Part shown: positions 27,958-42,168 of the stretch, piece by piece
How positions within the stretch are numbered: position 1 is the stretch's first letter
Layout: each line of letters begins with the position of its first letter
NCBI RefSeq assembly: GCF_000246985.2
Contig: NC_022084.1
Span: 1,286,817 to 1,350,816 of the forward strand
Length of the DNA: 64,000 nucleotides
Direction of reading: 5' to 3'
From: Thermococcus litoralis DSM 5473
Lineage (GTDB): Archaea; Methanobacteriota_B; Thermococci; Thermococcales; Thermococcaceae
Notes under the pieces: generated by a model
Told to the model about the DNA's origin: nothing
Databases searched by the model: none
Seen by the model: only the letters and a program-made list of their open reading frames with translations
Program-made: the position numbers and the translations under genes

Positions 27958-29239
27958 TTAAAGTTTTGCAAGCTTTTCAAATAGAGCACTCCAGAGCTTG
28001 AGGGGAGTTAGTTCGGTGAGCATCAGAGCTCCGAAGAGGATTATCACAATCCCCAGAATTTTCTCCCACTTAGCTTTCTTCTCCTTGGTTAGGCTTAGTC
28101 TGTTCGATAGGAACTTTTTATTTATCCAATCCGCAAAATCTTTTGAGCTAAGGATCAAATAGATGGTAAGCCCCATTCCCAGACCGTAGATACCCATGAC
28201 CATTATCCCCTTTAAGACGCTTCCACTTAATGCTGCTGTAATAACAGCAAACCCAACGTACGGTGCTATGCATCCAATCCAAGTGGCTCCAAGTGCAGAA
28301 CCCAATAGAAAGTCGTAAAAATAGCCGTTCTTTGATGAAATCCTCTCTGAAGGAGAGGGAATGAATTTAACCACTTTTTGGTTAACAGTATTACTTATTA
28401 GCGATGCTCCAACCAGAATGAACCCGAGGCCACCTACAAGATAGAGAGCCCCCCCTAACCTGAGCGATATAAGAGCCCAAGCTACCTGCTAAGGCCCCAA
28501 GCAGGGAAAAAGACACAACAAGGCCTGCTATAACAACCTCAATCTTCCTCTTTGCAAAGAGGAGTGAAAACGTTCCCGCTATAAGAGGGAGAACACAGGG
28601 CGAAAACACGCTTAGAATCCCAGCTGAGAAGATGGGTAGGAGGACTGCTAAAGATAAATTGCCTGTGGAAGAGGTTTCATCTTTCCCTTGTGATTCCTCG
28701 CTTGACCTCTCGCTATTCGTCGCATCCCCGAGGCTGTTCTGCACAAAAAATTCCAAACCTTCGGGATTTAATGCCCCAACGGCCACCCCTTTCAGAATCT
28801 TCTCTCCATTTTCAACTTTGAATATTGCCATGGTTGGTGTCCCAGGCACGCCGACGTTTATTAGCTCACCCTCTTCTTTTGGGGTGTAGTAGCCCACGTT
28901 GTCCGGCTGGATGACGAGAACTTTATCGTAAACCCTGTACTGGAGGTTTGTTAGTGCTCTCCCTTTATAAACGTCGATTGAGACCAAATTTATGCCCCTC
29001 AAGACTTTCTCTGCCTTTTGTGTCGGGAAAACATTGGTTTTCATATAATTACAGGCTGGACAAGTCTCTGAATGATAAAAGATGAAGAAGTGTTCTCCTT
29101 CATGATCTGAAAGTAAGGTCTCAAGCTCTTTTTCGCTTGAGATCGTGTAAAACTCCAAATTCCCATAAGTTACACTACTCGCACTCACCAAGCTTGTGAA
29201 GATGACAAGTGCAATCAGGAGCATAGTGGGCTTTCTCAC
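27958..29239 (-). pseudogene. Thioredoxin-like/CcdA (DsbD-type) fusion, one frameshift
   Basis: A membrane thiol-disulfide system in one chain. A signal peptide is followed by an extracytoplasmic thioredoxin-like domain with SETCPACNYMK and the cis-Pro region GVPGTPTMAIF. Then comes a CcdA-type membrane part with FSPCVLPLIAGTFSLLFA and WIGCIAPYVGFAV, whose cysteines carry electrons across the membrane. The frame is lost at a G7 run (28449-28455). With G6 it reads on through GALYLVGGLGFILVGASL into the second open part, which ends at 27958. This again may be a homopolymer error. It would keep extracellular thiols reduced. Confidence 0.85.
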
Positions 29240-39297: not shown

Positions 39298-39414
39298 TTT
39301 TGTTCTTTCTTCTCTTATCTCTTTTGCGATCCGATACTTGAGTTTACCATTCCCAATCCAAGGATAACCTCTTAATTTTTTAGATCGATTACTTCCGAAA
39401 ATTTTATAATCATG

Positions 39415-39432
39415 ACTCGAGTATACTCGAGT
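39415..39432. promoter_or_regulatory. 18-bp perfect palindrome at the methyltransferase transcription start
   Basis: ACTCGAGTATACTCGAGT is a perfect palindrome built of two CTCGAG units around TATA. It lies about 10 bp after the TATA-like ATTTTATAAT (39401-39410), so it covers the expected start of transcription, 13 bp before the ATG. It is a likely operator for a regulator or for the methyltransferase itself. Confidence 0.7.
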
Positions 39433-39444
39433 AGGTGAGAGAAC

Positions 39445-41148
39445 ATGACCGAAGCACCAACTCTCGATAAAATAAAAAAGCTGGGCCAAGTTCTTACTCC
39501 CTTTGAAATTGCGGAATTTCTTGTTAATTGGGCAATAAAAAGTCCCAAAGACTTAATACTCGAACCCAGTTGTGGAGATGGTATTTTTTTAAGGGCGGCA
39601 ATCAGGCGGTTGATGGAACTCGGGGCTTCCCCAGAATCAATATCTAAACAGGTTTATGGCGTAGAAATAGATTCTGAAATACTTGAAAAGACTAAAAAAC
39701 TTCTTTTGACTGAATTTTCTTTTGTGCCAACTCTGATAAATGCAGATTTTTTTGATTTAGAACCTCCAAGAGGTCAGCAGACCCTGAATAACTTGCTCAC
39801 AGCCCCAAAAATTCCAAGGGTGGATGTTATTGTTGGAAATCCTCCGTACATTAGATATCAATCTTTTTCGGGAAAAACAAGGGAGAAGGCTCTCAGAACG
39901 GCCCTCGAAGAGGGGGTTAAGCTGCCTGAACTCACAGCATCCTGGGTTCCATTCGTAATTCATGCAGAGAAGTTTCTTAAAAAAGATGGTCGTCTTGCGA
40001 TGGTCCTTCCTTCGAAACTTCTCCATGTTGGATACGCAAAACCATTTAGAAAATGGCTTCTGAAGAAGTTTTCTAATATTACGATAATCTCGTTTGAGAG
40101 GAGAGTATTCCCAGGCATTCTCGAAGATACAGTTTTGCTCTTAGCCAGTAAATCTGGGCCTTATGGGGTTCGATTTGTAGAGGTTACTGATGAAAGGGAG
40201 CTCTCTGGGTTGGATTTGGAATCTTCAACTTTCGTACTTACGCGGCCAAATCCTGATGAGAAATGGACAAAGTACATACTCCCGCAGAATTTGGAAAGTT
40301 CATTGGGGGAAATACTTAATAAAGTGCAGGAAAAGGTTGTACTACTAGGGGAGCTGGGAATAGTGACAATTGGAGTGGTGACTGGAAGCAATGAATTCTT
40401 TACCCTAACGGAAGAGGAGGCAAGCTCATGGGGAATCGAGAAGGAATATCTGGTACCTTTGGTCTCTCGGGCTGAACAAATATCCGGAGTTGAAATTACA
40501 ACCTCCGACTGGGAACTTATCAAAAAGCTCGGCCAAAAGTGCTATCTTCTGGAGGTTACAAAACCATGGGACGAACTGGGAATGGGGGTGAGAGAATACC
40601 TAATTAAAAGAGGAGACGAACTCAACGTTAGAGCTCGCTACAAAGTGAGAATAAGAAAAACATGGTATACCGTGCCTGGAGTTAGGTTTCCAGACCTTTT
40701 TATGAGCTATATGTCCCATGAAGTACCCAAAATGGCTTCCAATGAGATCGTGGTAAATGAGCGGAAAGCCACTAGCACAAACACAATTCACCAGATATTC
40801 CTCAAGAGGAAACTTGAACCGAGGCTGCTCTCTACTCTGTTTTACAACTCTCTAACATTGCTCTCCACTGAGCTTGTAGGAAGATTTTACGGGGGAGGCG
40901 TCCTAAAGATCGAGCCAAAAGAAGCTGAGAAAATCTTAATTCCAATGGCTGAAGAACCAAAGGAAATTCTTGATATCTCTTCGAAAGTTGACCGGTTACT
41001 AAGGGCTAAAAGAACCGCTGATGCTGTTGCTATTGTCAATGAGGTCATACTTGAAGGAGAACTCGGATTGAAACCACGGGATGTTGAGGTTATTGAGGAG
41101 ACCTGGAAGTATCTCCAGGAAAGAAGAATGAAAAAGAGCCTTGGCTAA
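39445..41148 (+). CDS. Type II N6-adenine DNA methyltransferase (gamma class)
   Basis: A 567-residue modification enzyme. Motif I is LEPSCGDGIFL (about residues 33-43), and motif IV is IVGNPPYIRY (about 128-137), the order of gamma-class N6A methyltransferases such as M.TaqI. The C-terminal 300 residues form the target recognition region. It shows no endonuclease motif, so it is not a fused type IIG enzyme. A convergent gene whose 3' end overlaps by four bases encodes a PD-(D/E)XK protein, the likely cognate restriction enzyme. The ATG has AGGTGAGAGAAC before it. The recognition sequence is unknown. Confidence 0.88.
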   Translation: MTEAPTLDKIKKLGQVLTPFEIAEFLVNWAIKSPKDLILEPSCGDGIFLRAAIRRLMELGASPESISKQVYGVEIDSEILEKTKKLLLTEFSFVPTLINADFFDLEPPRGQQTLNNLLTAPKIPRVDVIVGNPPYIRYQSFSGKTREKALRTALEEGVKLPELTASWVPFVIHAEKFLKKDGRLAMVLPSKLLHVGYAKPFRKWLLKKFSNITIISFERRVFPGILEDTVLLLASKSGPYGVRFVEVTDERELSGLDLESSTFVLTRPNPDEKWTKYILPQNLESSLGEILNKVQEKVVLLGELGIVTIGVVTGSNEFFTLTEEEASSWGIEKEYLVPLVSRAEQISGVEITTSDWELIKKLGQKCYLLEVTKPWDELGMGVREYLIKRGDELNVRARYKVRIRKTWYTVPGVRFPDLFMSYMSHEVPKMASNEIVVNERKATSTNTIHQIFLKRKLEPRLLSTLFYNSLTLLSTELVGRFYGGGVLKIEPKEAEKILIPMAEEPKEILDISSKVDRLLRAKRTADAVAIVNEVILEGELGLKPRDVEVIEETWKYLQERRMKKSLG

Positions 41149-41990
41149 TCCAAGTGAGTATCTAGGAACTTTATAAGATCCTTCACCGCGTCGTCTATTG
41201 AAATTCTTTCCCTTTTGATTCTCTCAGTTTCAACGGGAACGTATCTGCCATTCTCCTCCCGGAACATGAAAAGACCTACTGCGTTGTTGTATTTTAGTAG
41301 ATTCCTGAATTTTTCGAGAAGAAGATCGGGATTATCAAAGTCTACTCTCCTTCCTGTTTTCTTGTCAAGACGGCCCGAGGCAAGCCTGGATGCCCAGAAC
41401 GAGTAAAAGCCGGGAATGGAGGTATGAATCCATCGCATCCACCAACTGTTATTAGAAACTTCAGAAAAAGTATTCTTGGAGTTTAAGGCATTTATTATGG
41501 CCTCTTCGGGAGTGTAGCGAAGTTTTAAATCCACTGCGGTGAACTTGACTTCTTTTAATCTTTTATCTAGATCGCTCTGCGTCTTTCTTTCCTTCTGAAC
41601 CGTTGTTCCCTTCTTATGCCTTGGGCTACCTGTCATTTTGACTTCGCCAGCCACCAAAACAGTAGCGTCCCTCACATAAGCGAGATCAACGTCATGAGTT
41701 CTCTCAGAATAGCCAGGAATTCTTCTATCTGTTAGGCGGTAGATTCCCCCAGATCTTATGTAAATCAATTCGCTGATAAAATCTCTAAATGCGTTTCCTT
41801 TCTGTCGGTATTCTCCCTCTGGAAGTCTGCCGTTAATACGAGCTTTTTCAACGATTTGATAGTATGCTTTCAGAAAATCGTCCTGAATAGGCTCGAAGTA
41901 TCCCCTAGAGGTTCTGGCCAATTCAGTTATAGACTCACAGAACTTCTTAATAACAGGGCTCTTCAAAGTATGGCAAACGCTAGTTTCCAT
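41145..41990 (-). CDS. Putative type II restriction endonuclease (PD-(D/E)XK)
   Basis: A 281-residue soluble protein. The segment RTHDVDLAYV followed by TVLVAGEVKMTGSPRHKK fits the D...ExK catalytic core of restriction enzymes. Upstream helices (NAFRDFISELIYIRSGG) are typical of the fold's N-terminal part. I do not recognise a characterised isoschizomer. Position decides the call: it is convergent with and overlaps the adenine methyltransferase gene. Start 41990 has GAGGTGAAACT before it. Confidence in nuclease fold is good, in restriction function moderate. Confidence 0.7.
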   Translation of the reverse strand: METSVCHTLKSPVIKKFCESITELARTSRGYFEPIQDDFLKAYYQIVEKARINGRLPEGEYRQKGNAFRDFISELIYIRSGGIYRLTDRRIPGYSERTHDVDLAYVRDATVLVAGEVKMTGSPRHKKGTTVQKERKTQSDLDKRLKEVKFTAVDLKLRYTPEEAIINALNSKNTFSEVSNNSWWMRWIHTSIPGFYSFWASRLASGRLDKKTGRRVDFDNPDLLLEKFRNLLKYNNAVGLFMFREENGRYVPVETERIKRERISIDDAVKDLIKFLDTHLD

Positions 41991-42111
41991 AGTTTCACCT
42001 CGTAGGAGACTAAACCATGGACAAATTAAAACTGTTTTGTAGAGCTTTGCTTCTATTGTAAGTAGTCGTTAAACACTTTCACTTTCAATCCCAATAATGT
42101 TTAACGCTGCC

Positions 42112-42129
42112 TTTTTCTGTCCAGAAAAA
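42112..42129. promoter_or_regulatory. Inverted repeat upstream of the iorA TATA box
   Basis: TTTTTCTG-TC-CAGAAAAA, with eight-base perfect arms, ends just before the TATA element GATATATAGG (42131-42140). The core TTCTGTCCAGAA is the same as at 21380-21391 before the flavodiiron gene, with the same position relative to TATA. Confidence 0.5.
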
Positions 42130-42168
42130 TGATATATAGGTTCGCTTCCAAAACCATATGGTGTTCCT

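Follow-up and report, generated by a model that had tools for sequence, protein, structure and literature searches.

The promoter of the DNA methyltransferase gene (M) of a two-gene restriction-modification (R-M) locus of Thermococcus litoralis DSM 5473 contained two copies of CTCGAG, and this pair of sites was kept in all seven archaeal genomes that encode a close relative of M. We propose that M and its neighboring endonuclease gene (R) constitute the TliI system, which is directed against CTCGAG, and that M probably regulates itself through these two sites, which would be its own targets. R-M systems that enter a new cell must make the methylase before the nuclease, and the known solutions to this timing problem (i.e., C proteins, repressor methyltransferases and promoter methylation) were established in bacterial systems. 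The locus described here is an archaeal case with two genes, in which the recognition sequence itself, placed at a TATA/TFB-type promoter, appears to be the sole regulatory input, and the enzyme of T. litoralis, TliI, is already known. In the literature searched, which consisted of titles and the first parts of abstracts and included few subscription papers, no archaeal example of promoter regulation by a system's own site was found, and the locus may be the first archaeal variant of a mode of regulation that is already known.

The M and R genes of T. litoralis

The window, i.e., the whole stretch of 64,000 nucleotides that was analyzed (G000:C1:1286817-1350816), is part of the single-contig 2.2-Mb genome (2,215,172 bp) of T. 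litoralis. Of the two ADP-sugar-kinase genes in this genome, one encodes an ADP-glucokinase that matches PDB 4b8r, an entry from T. litoralis, with full identity across 466 residues. M (39445-41148, + strand) encodes a gamma-class N6-adenine DNA methyltransferase of 567 aa, while R (41145-41990, − strand) encodes a Type II restriction endonuclease of 281 aa that is probably R.TliI. As originally predicted, the ORF coordinates place the two genes in convergent orientation with their stop codons overlapping by four bases (41145-41148). The absence of a separate C-protein gene was also borne out, because the flanking gaps of 147 bp between a ferritin-like gene and M and of 178 bp between R and iorA are too small to hold one. 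The locus is thus supported as a Type II R-M pair that has no room for a C gene. The ferritin-like gene and iorA lie next to each other, about 90 bp apart, in genomes G096 and G101, which identifies the M/R pair as an insertion in T. litoralis that, judged from the spacing in these two genomes, extends approximately from 39298 to 42158.

M matched the Pfam families N6_Mtase, Eco57I and M_Eco57I_C and contained the methyltransferase catalytic motifs LEPSCGDG and NPPY, in line with the gamma class to which it had been assigned. Its closest solved structure by sequence was that of M.BseCI (E = 1.2e-9). The methyltransferase domain of M starts near residue 10, and Pfam gave no helix-turn-helix match that would point to an extra N-terminal DNA-binding domain. 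Searches with three methyltransferase families found two clear DNA methyltransferases in the T. litoralis genome, M and a C5 methyltransferase, and the remaining matches that were inspected look like RNA methylases. An ATPase gene lies about 1 kb downstream of the C5 methyltransferase gene (L068:3273-4418), and no restriction gene was evident beside the latter in a 10-kb stretch.

The nuclease had been said to resemble none that could be recognized. This did not hold, as the PADLOC model PDLC03576 for Type II restriction endonucleases already covers R (281 of 281 positions, 668 bits). Given that the R homologs scored lower with this model, i.e., 607 for a 91%-identical protein and 402-414 for proteins of about 65% identity, PDLC03576 was apparently built on R or a near-identical protein. 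No Pfam or NCBIfam match of weight to R and no relative of R among solved structures were found. R did not match the XhoI/PaeR7I family (PF04555) at E up to 1 and was thus rejected as a member of this family; a genome-wide search with PF04555 was uninformative, as the controls likewise gave no match. The motif HDVDLAYV...GEVK of R was invariant across five homologs except for flanking residues. By eye, this motif fits the PD-(D/E)XK pattern, and E74...D102...E116-V-K118 (gene on the − strand) is the candidate active site in the alignment. The AlphaFold model of R made from the alignment of five sequences was poor (mean pLDDT 49.6). Outside Thermococcales, a pattern-limited search of genome_contigs returned no R relatives beyond three Thermococcus records, and none were found in plasmids (E up to 0.1) or in viral contigs.

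A CTCGAG doublet in the M promoter

The palindrome ACTCGAGTATACTCGAGT, which is perfect over 18 bp, was found at 39415-39432 as described in the original prediction. It sits between a TATA-like box (39402-39409) and the ribosome-binding site GGTGAG of M (39434-39439, + strand), just downstream of the former; GGTG is invariant in all seven M loci. The box belongs to a putative BRE/TATA-like element, CCGAAAATTTTATAA (39395-39409, + strand), and the relatives have a TATA-like element at a similar distance from the doublet. The palindrome contains two copies of CTCGAG, at 39416-39421 and 39426-39431, which are 10 bp, or one helical turn, apart. If transcription of M starts about 26 bases from the center of the TATA-like box, the second copy would cover or touch the start.

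A perfect palindrome of 18 bp alone is not rare: the window contained two, compared to 0.24 expected, the other being TCCTCTTTGCAAAGAGGA at 28546-28563. No second match to ACTCGAGTATACTCGAGT was found in the window with up to three mismatches allowed, and a match occurred in 1 of 100 shuffles. The M promoter was the sole place in the window where a 6-bp palindrome recurred at 10 bp, and it held the sole pair of CTCGAG sites 0-24 bp apart in the whole 2.2-Mb genome (20 in the reversed-pattern control). A putative TATA-like element of R was found at 42023-42032 (− strand). In five of the six R loci examined, that of T. litoralis included, the 300 bp upstream of R were free of CTCGAG, while one copy was found at −261 in G037.

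Distribution and conservation of the doublet

Relatives of R were identified in 7 of the 115 Thermococci-class genomes surveyed, and R adjoins M in each of them. Relatives of M at E ≤ 1e-30 were found in the same seven genomes and in G019, whose M is 33% identical. Within the genus of T. litoralis, the pair is restricted to T. litoralis (1 of 13 genomes). The sequence CTCGAG-N4-CTCGAG lies directly upstream of M in all seven genomes whose M is at least 57% identical, and it was absent upstream of the archaeal M relative of G019. The seven genomes form two clades, one consisting of G000, G049 and G037 with the spacer TATA, and the other consisting of G064 (TAGA) and G089, G072 and G077 (TGAA), and the number of independent cases is therefore few. 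When the first clade is compared with the other genomes, all 12 site bases match, as against 16-23 of 60 upstream bases, the latter being not far above chance, and the string invariant across the M promoters is CTCGAGTNNACTCGAGTNGGTG. The conserved unit is the CTCGAG pair, not the palindrome itself: the latter, which had been put forward as an operator, is not kept where the spacer is TAGA or TGAA.

Class-wide, the doublet was found in 13 of the 115 genomes, once in each, with seven copies at M promoters and six inside ORFs. If sites were placed uniformly, a total of about 0.9 such pairs would be expected across the six other carriers of the M/R pair, compared to 0.04 in T. litoralis, and the chance that a doublet falls beside M is far smaller than that.

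Two of the carriers have interrupted genes next to an intact doublet. In G037, a frameshift divides R and M is also frameshifted, at a T-run (G037:C4:37125-39533; L007, L008, L020), for which assembly error, decay and phase variation are possible explanations, and in G077, two in-frame TAA codons interrupt R and one TGA interrupts M. Both genomes are drafts and may contain sequencing errors. The doublet with its flanks was also found in 11 stretches of viral contigs, none of which encodes relatives of M or R by tblastn.

CTCGAG as the probable recognition sequence

T. litoralis is the source organism of TliI, whose target is listed as CTCGAG in REBASE. Because T. litoralis DSM 5473 is this source, the M/R pair is very probably the TliI system. 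As CTCGAG is also the invariant core of all seven M promoters, it is very probably the recognition sequence of the pair. The original prediction had placed the recognition sequence within the palindrome and offered CTCGAG or GTATAC. The first of these stands; the second was rejected, as only three of the seven loci have the spacer TATA and GTATAC is absent from the other four. No paper naming the enzyme TliI was found in the literature searched.

Avoidance of CTCGAG was compared within genus g4 between 6 carriers and 55 non-carriers of the pair (one-sided). The carriers had fewer sites per Mb (P = 0.015) and a lower ratio of CTCGAG to GAGCTC (P = 0.039), with genomes counted without correction for kinship. 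The lowest number of sites among the 61 genomes of this genus was the 36 of the carrier G064, while several non-carriers were as depleted as the carriers (G074, 63 sites; G092, 92; G093, 113), and the 284 sites of T. litoralis are typical for its own genus. The depletion in carriers is thus weak, and avoidance was rejected as proof of the specificity. Strong depletion (63-167 sites) occurred in six genomes that lack the pair, i.e., G074, G068, G069, G082, G092 and G093, which may have or have lost another CTCGAG-directed system.

Proposed regulation of M

The doublet is confined to one promoter and travels with one gene pair, which points to M or R as its reader. Given that M has no extra Pfam domain and that the flanks leave no room for a C gene, the locus fits the kind of system that is regulated by promoter methylation. 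According to PMC6237814, modification of a recognition site located in an M promoter lowers the activity of that promoter. On entry into a new cell, the CTCGAG sites of T. litoralis M would be unmethylated and M would be strongly transcribed. As M accumulates, it would methylate (or sit on) both sites, which are spaced by one helical turn and located between the TATA-like box and the predicted start, and transcription of M would drop, while R would be expressed from its own promoter, which has no such sites. By analogy with known systems, this arrangement suggests that the methylase monitors its own activity and lowers its own expression by negative feedback. We infer that methylation is more likely than occupancy to be the signal. 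It should be added that N6-methyladenine placed where the promoter melts might, in principle, also aid initiation rather than hinder it.

Self-repression of the methyltransferase by binding to its own site had been suggested in the original prediction. The part concerning the site was upheld, as two presumed own sites are found in the promoter, while repression by M as a bound protein appears unlikely, albeit the best of the alternatives. In that case, one or two M molecules on the doublet would block TFB or RNA polymerase, whether the sites are methylated or not. The sites overlap the predicted start and their spacing of one turn on one face of the helix would suit side-by-side binding, and methyltransferases that act as repressors are known (PMC3874152). 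However, the precedents with an own site in the M promoter have methylation as the signal, and PMC6237814 describes the methyltransferases that repress as bound proteins as using an extra DNA-binding domain, which is absent from M by Pfam, and an operator that bears no relation to the site they recognize. Moreover, a methyltransferase is expected to leave fully methylated sites.

That R is the actor is highly improbable; in this reading, R would bind or cut the promoter sites while they are unmethylated and thereby destroy or silence any copy of the locus that lacks protection. R would have the same target if the pair is TliI, and it is present in the same seven genomes, but a single site anywhere would suffice for such a role and a fixed pair in the promoter would be unneeded; we know of no precedent for an endonuclease acting through promoter sites in this way. 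It is equally hard to regard the doublet as the binding site of a host transcription factor that has no link to the pair. A promoter with a perfect palindrome does bring an operator to mind, but no other promoter in the 115 genomes has the doublet, and a host regulon was rejected, as the six other copies are all inside ORFs. Inheritance of a doublet that has no function, for which the presence of only two clades and the shortness of the alignments could be cited, is likewise most improbable, since all 12 bases were kept while the flanks diverged.

Presumed own-site copies in bacterial promoters

Bacterial relatives of M with 32-36% identity were examined in 10 of 131 plasmid records. None of these 10 had a CTCGAG doublet within 200 bp upstream, and their R-side partners were of other kinds. 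A single CTCGAG was observed at the start codon of the M relative of Gordonia (L051).

Copies of a presumed own site were found in promoters of another group, the XamI-family systems, which are encoded on plasmids, have distant relatives of M and are named for a system with the recognition site GTCGAC. A search with one XamI-family M protein returned 17 plasmid records, and 12 loci were examined in all, with five matches of already sampled species (three of Pseudomonas aeruginosa, one of Sphingomonas and one of M. kansasii) left out. By annotated starts, 6 of the 12 loci have GTCGAC no more than 40 bp ahead of the first gene of the operon. Gordonia and M. kansasii also qualify when an unannotated small ORF is counted, which gives eight loci with upstream GTCGAC (L095:2066-2079, L096:1422-1441, L098:1483-1502, L094:2013, L097:1350, L099:1344, L101:1457 and L104:1484). 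Among 10 non-redundant loci, four had GTCGAC within 45 bp, compared to 0.36 expected (P = 2.5e-4, post hoc); as the test was conceived after the Massilia locus had been seen, this result is a lead and not proof. Doublets of GTCGAC were found in three loci (Massilia, Micrococcus and Gordonia), and in Micrococcus and Gordonia the two copies flank a −10-like TATAGC/TATAAC. No GTCGAC was found upstream of the operons of P. aeruginosa, Agreia, Tabrizicola and Sphingopyxis.

The unannotated small ORFs before M (L098:1531 in Gordonia and L101:1482 in M. kansasii) are similar to an annotated ORF of 74-75 aa in Micrococcus and Rhodococcus, and the small ORF is possibly a regulator of XamI-type operons. 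The P. aeruginosa operon, whose promoter lacks GTCGAC, has at L093:2050-2082 the inverted repeat TGGATACACAAATGTGTATCCA, before a small ORF.

Comparison with known systems

TliI comes from the same organism as the locus described here, and its target CTCGAG is the conserved promoter element of the latter, with which TliI is very probably identical. The XhoI/PaeR7I endonucleases presumably share this target, but they belong to PF04555, which R does not match. In R-M systems controlled by C proteins, the C gene is found beside R or M, whereas the T. litoralis locus has none.

CfrBI, LlaDII and AhdI are systems regulated by methylation of the M promoter (PMC12707154 and PMC3874152), and according to the former, its effect is restricted to M in LlaDII and AhdI. 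Like these systems, the T. litoralis locus has its own site in the M promoter, if CTCGAG is that site (all seven loci), and has no separate repressor domain. Unlike these bacterial systems, the M promoter of T. litoralis looks archaeal, with a TATA-like box, and its sites are paired at a fixed spacing of 10 bp. The CfrBI genes are divergent and have overlapping promoters, whereas M and R of T. litoralis converge. Repressor methyltransferases of the SsoII/EcoRII type regulate their own genes with no C protein involved (PMC3874152), as we infer for T. litoralis M. These enzymes, however, carry a helix-turn-helix at the N terminus and use an operator that differs in kind from their recognition site, whereas T. 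litoralis M has no extra domain by Pfam.

The XamI-family systems share with the T. litoralis locus an N6-adenine methyltransferase and own-site copies in the operon promoter (GTCGAC by their named specificity), three of them as doublets. They differ in that their M proteins are only 22-25% identical to T. litoralis M, their R proteins are of another family, their promoters are bacterial and a small ORF precedes M in most of them. The promoter own-sites of the TliI group and of the XamI family are a possible case of convergence, recognized post hoc. We tentatively suggest, at somewhat less than even confidence, that own-site copies in the methylase promoter are a convergent timing device that works without a C protein in both domains, with CTCGAG doublets at an archaeal TATA promoter and GTCGAC singles or doublets near the promoter elements of operons of the bacterial XamI family. 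If so, the specificity of uncharacterized R-M systems could be read cheaply from their promoters.
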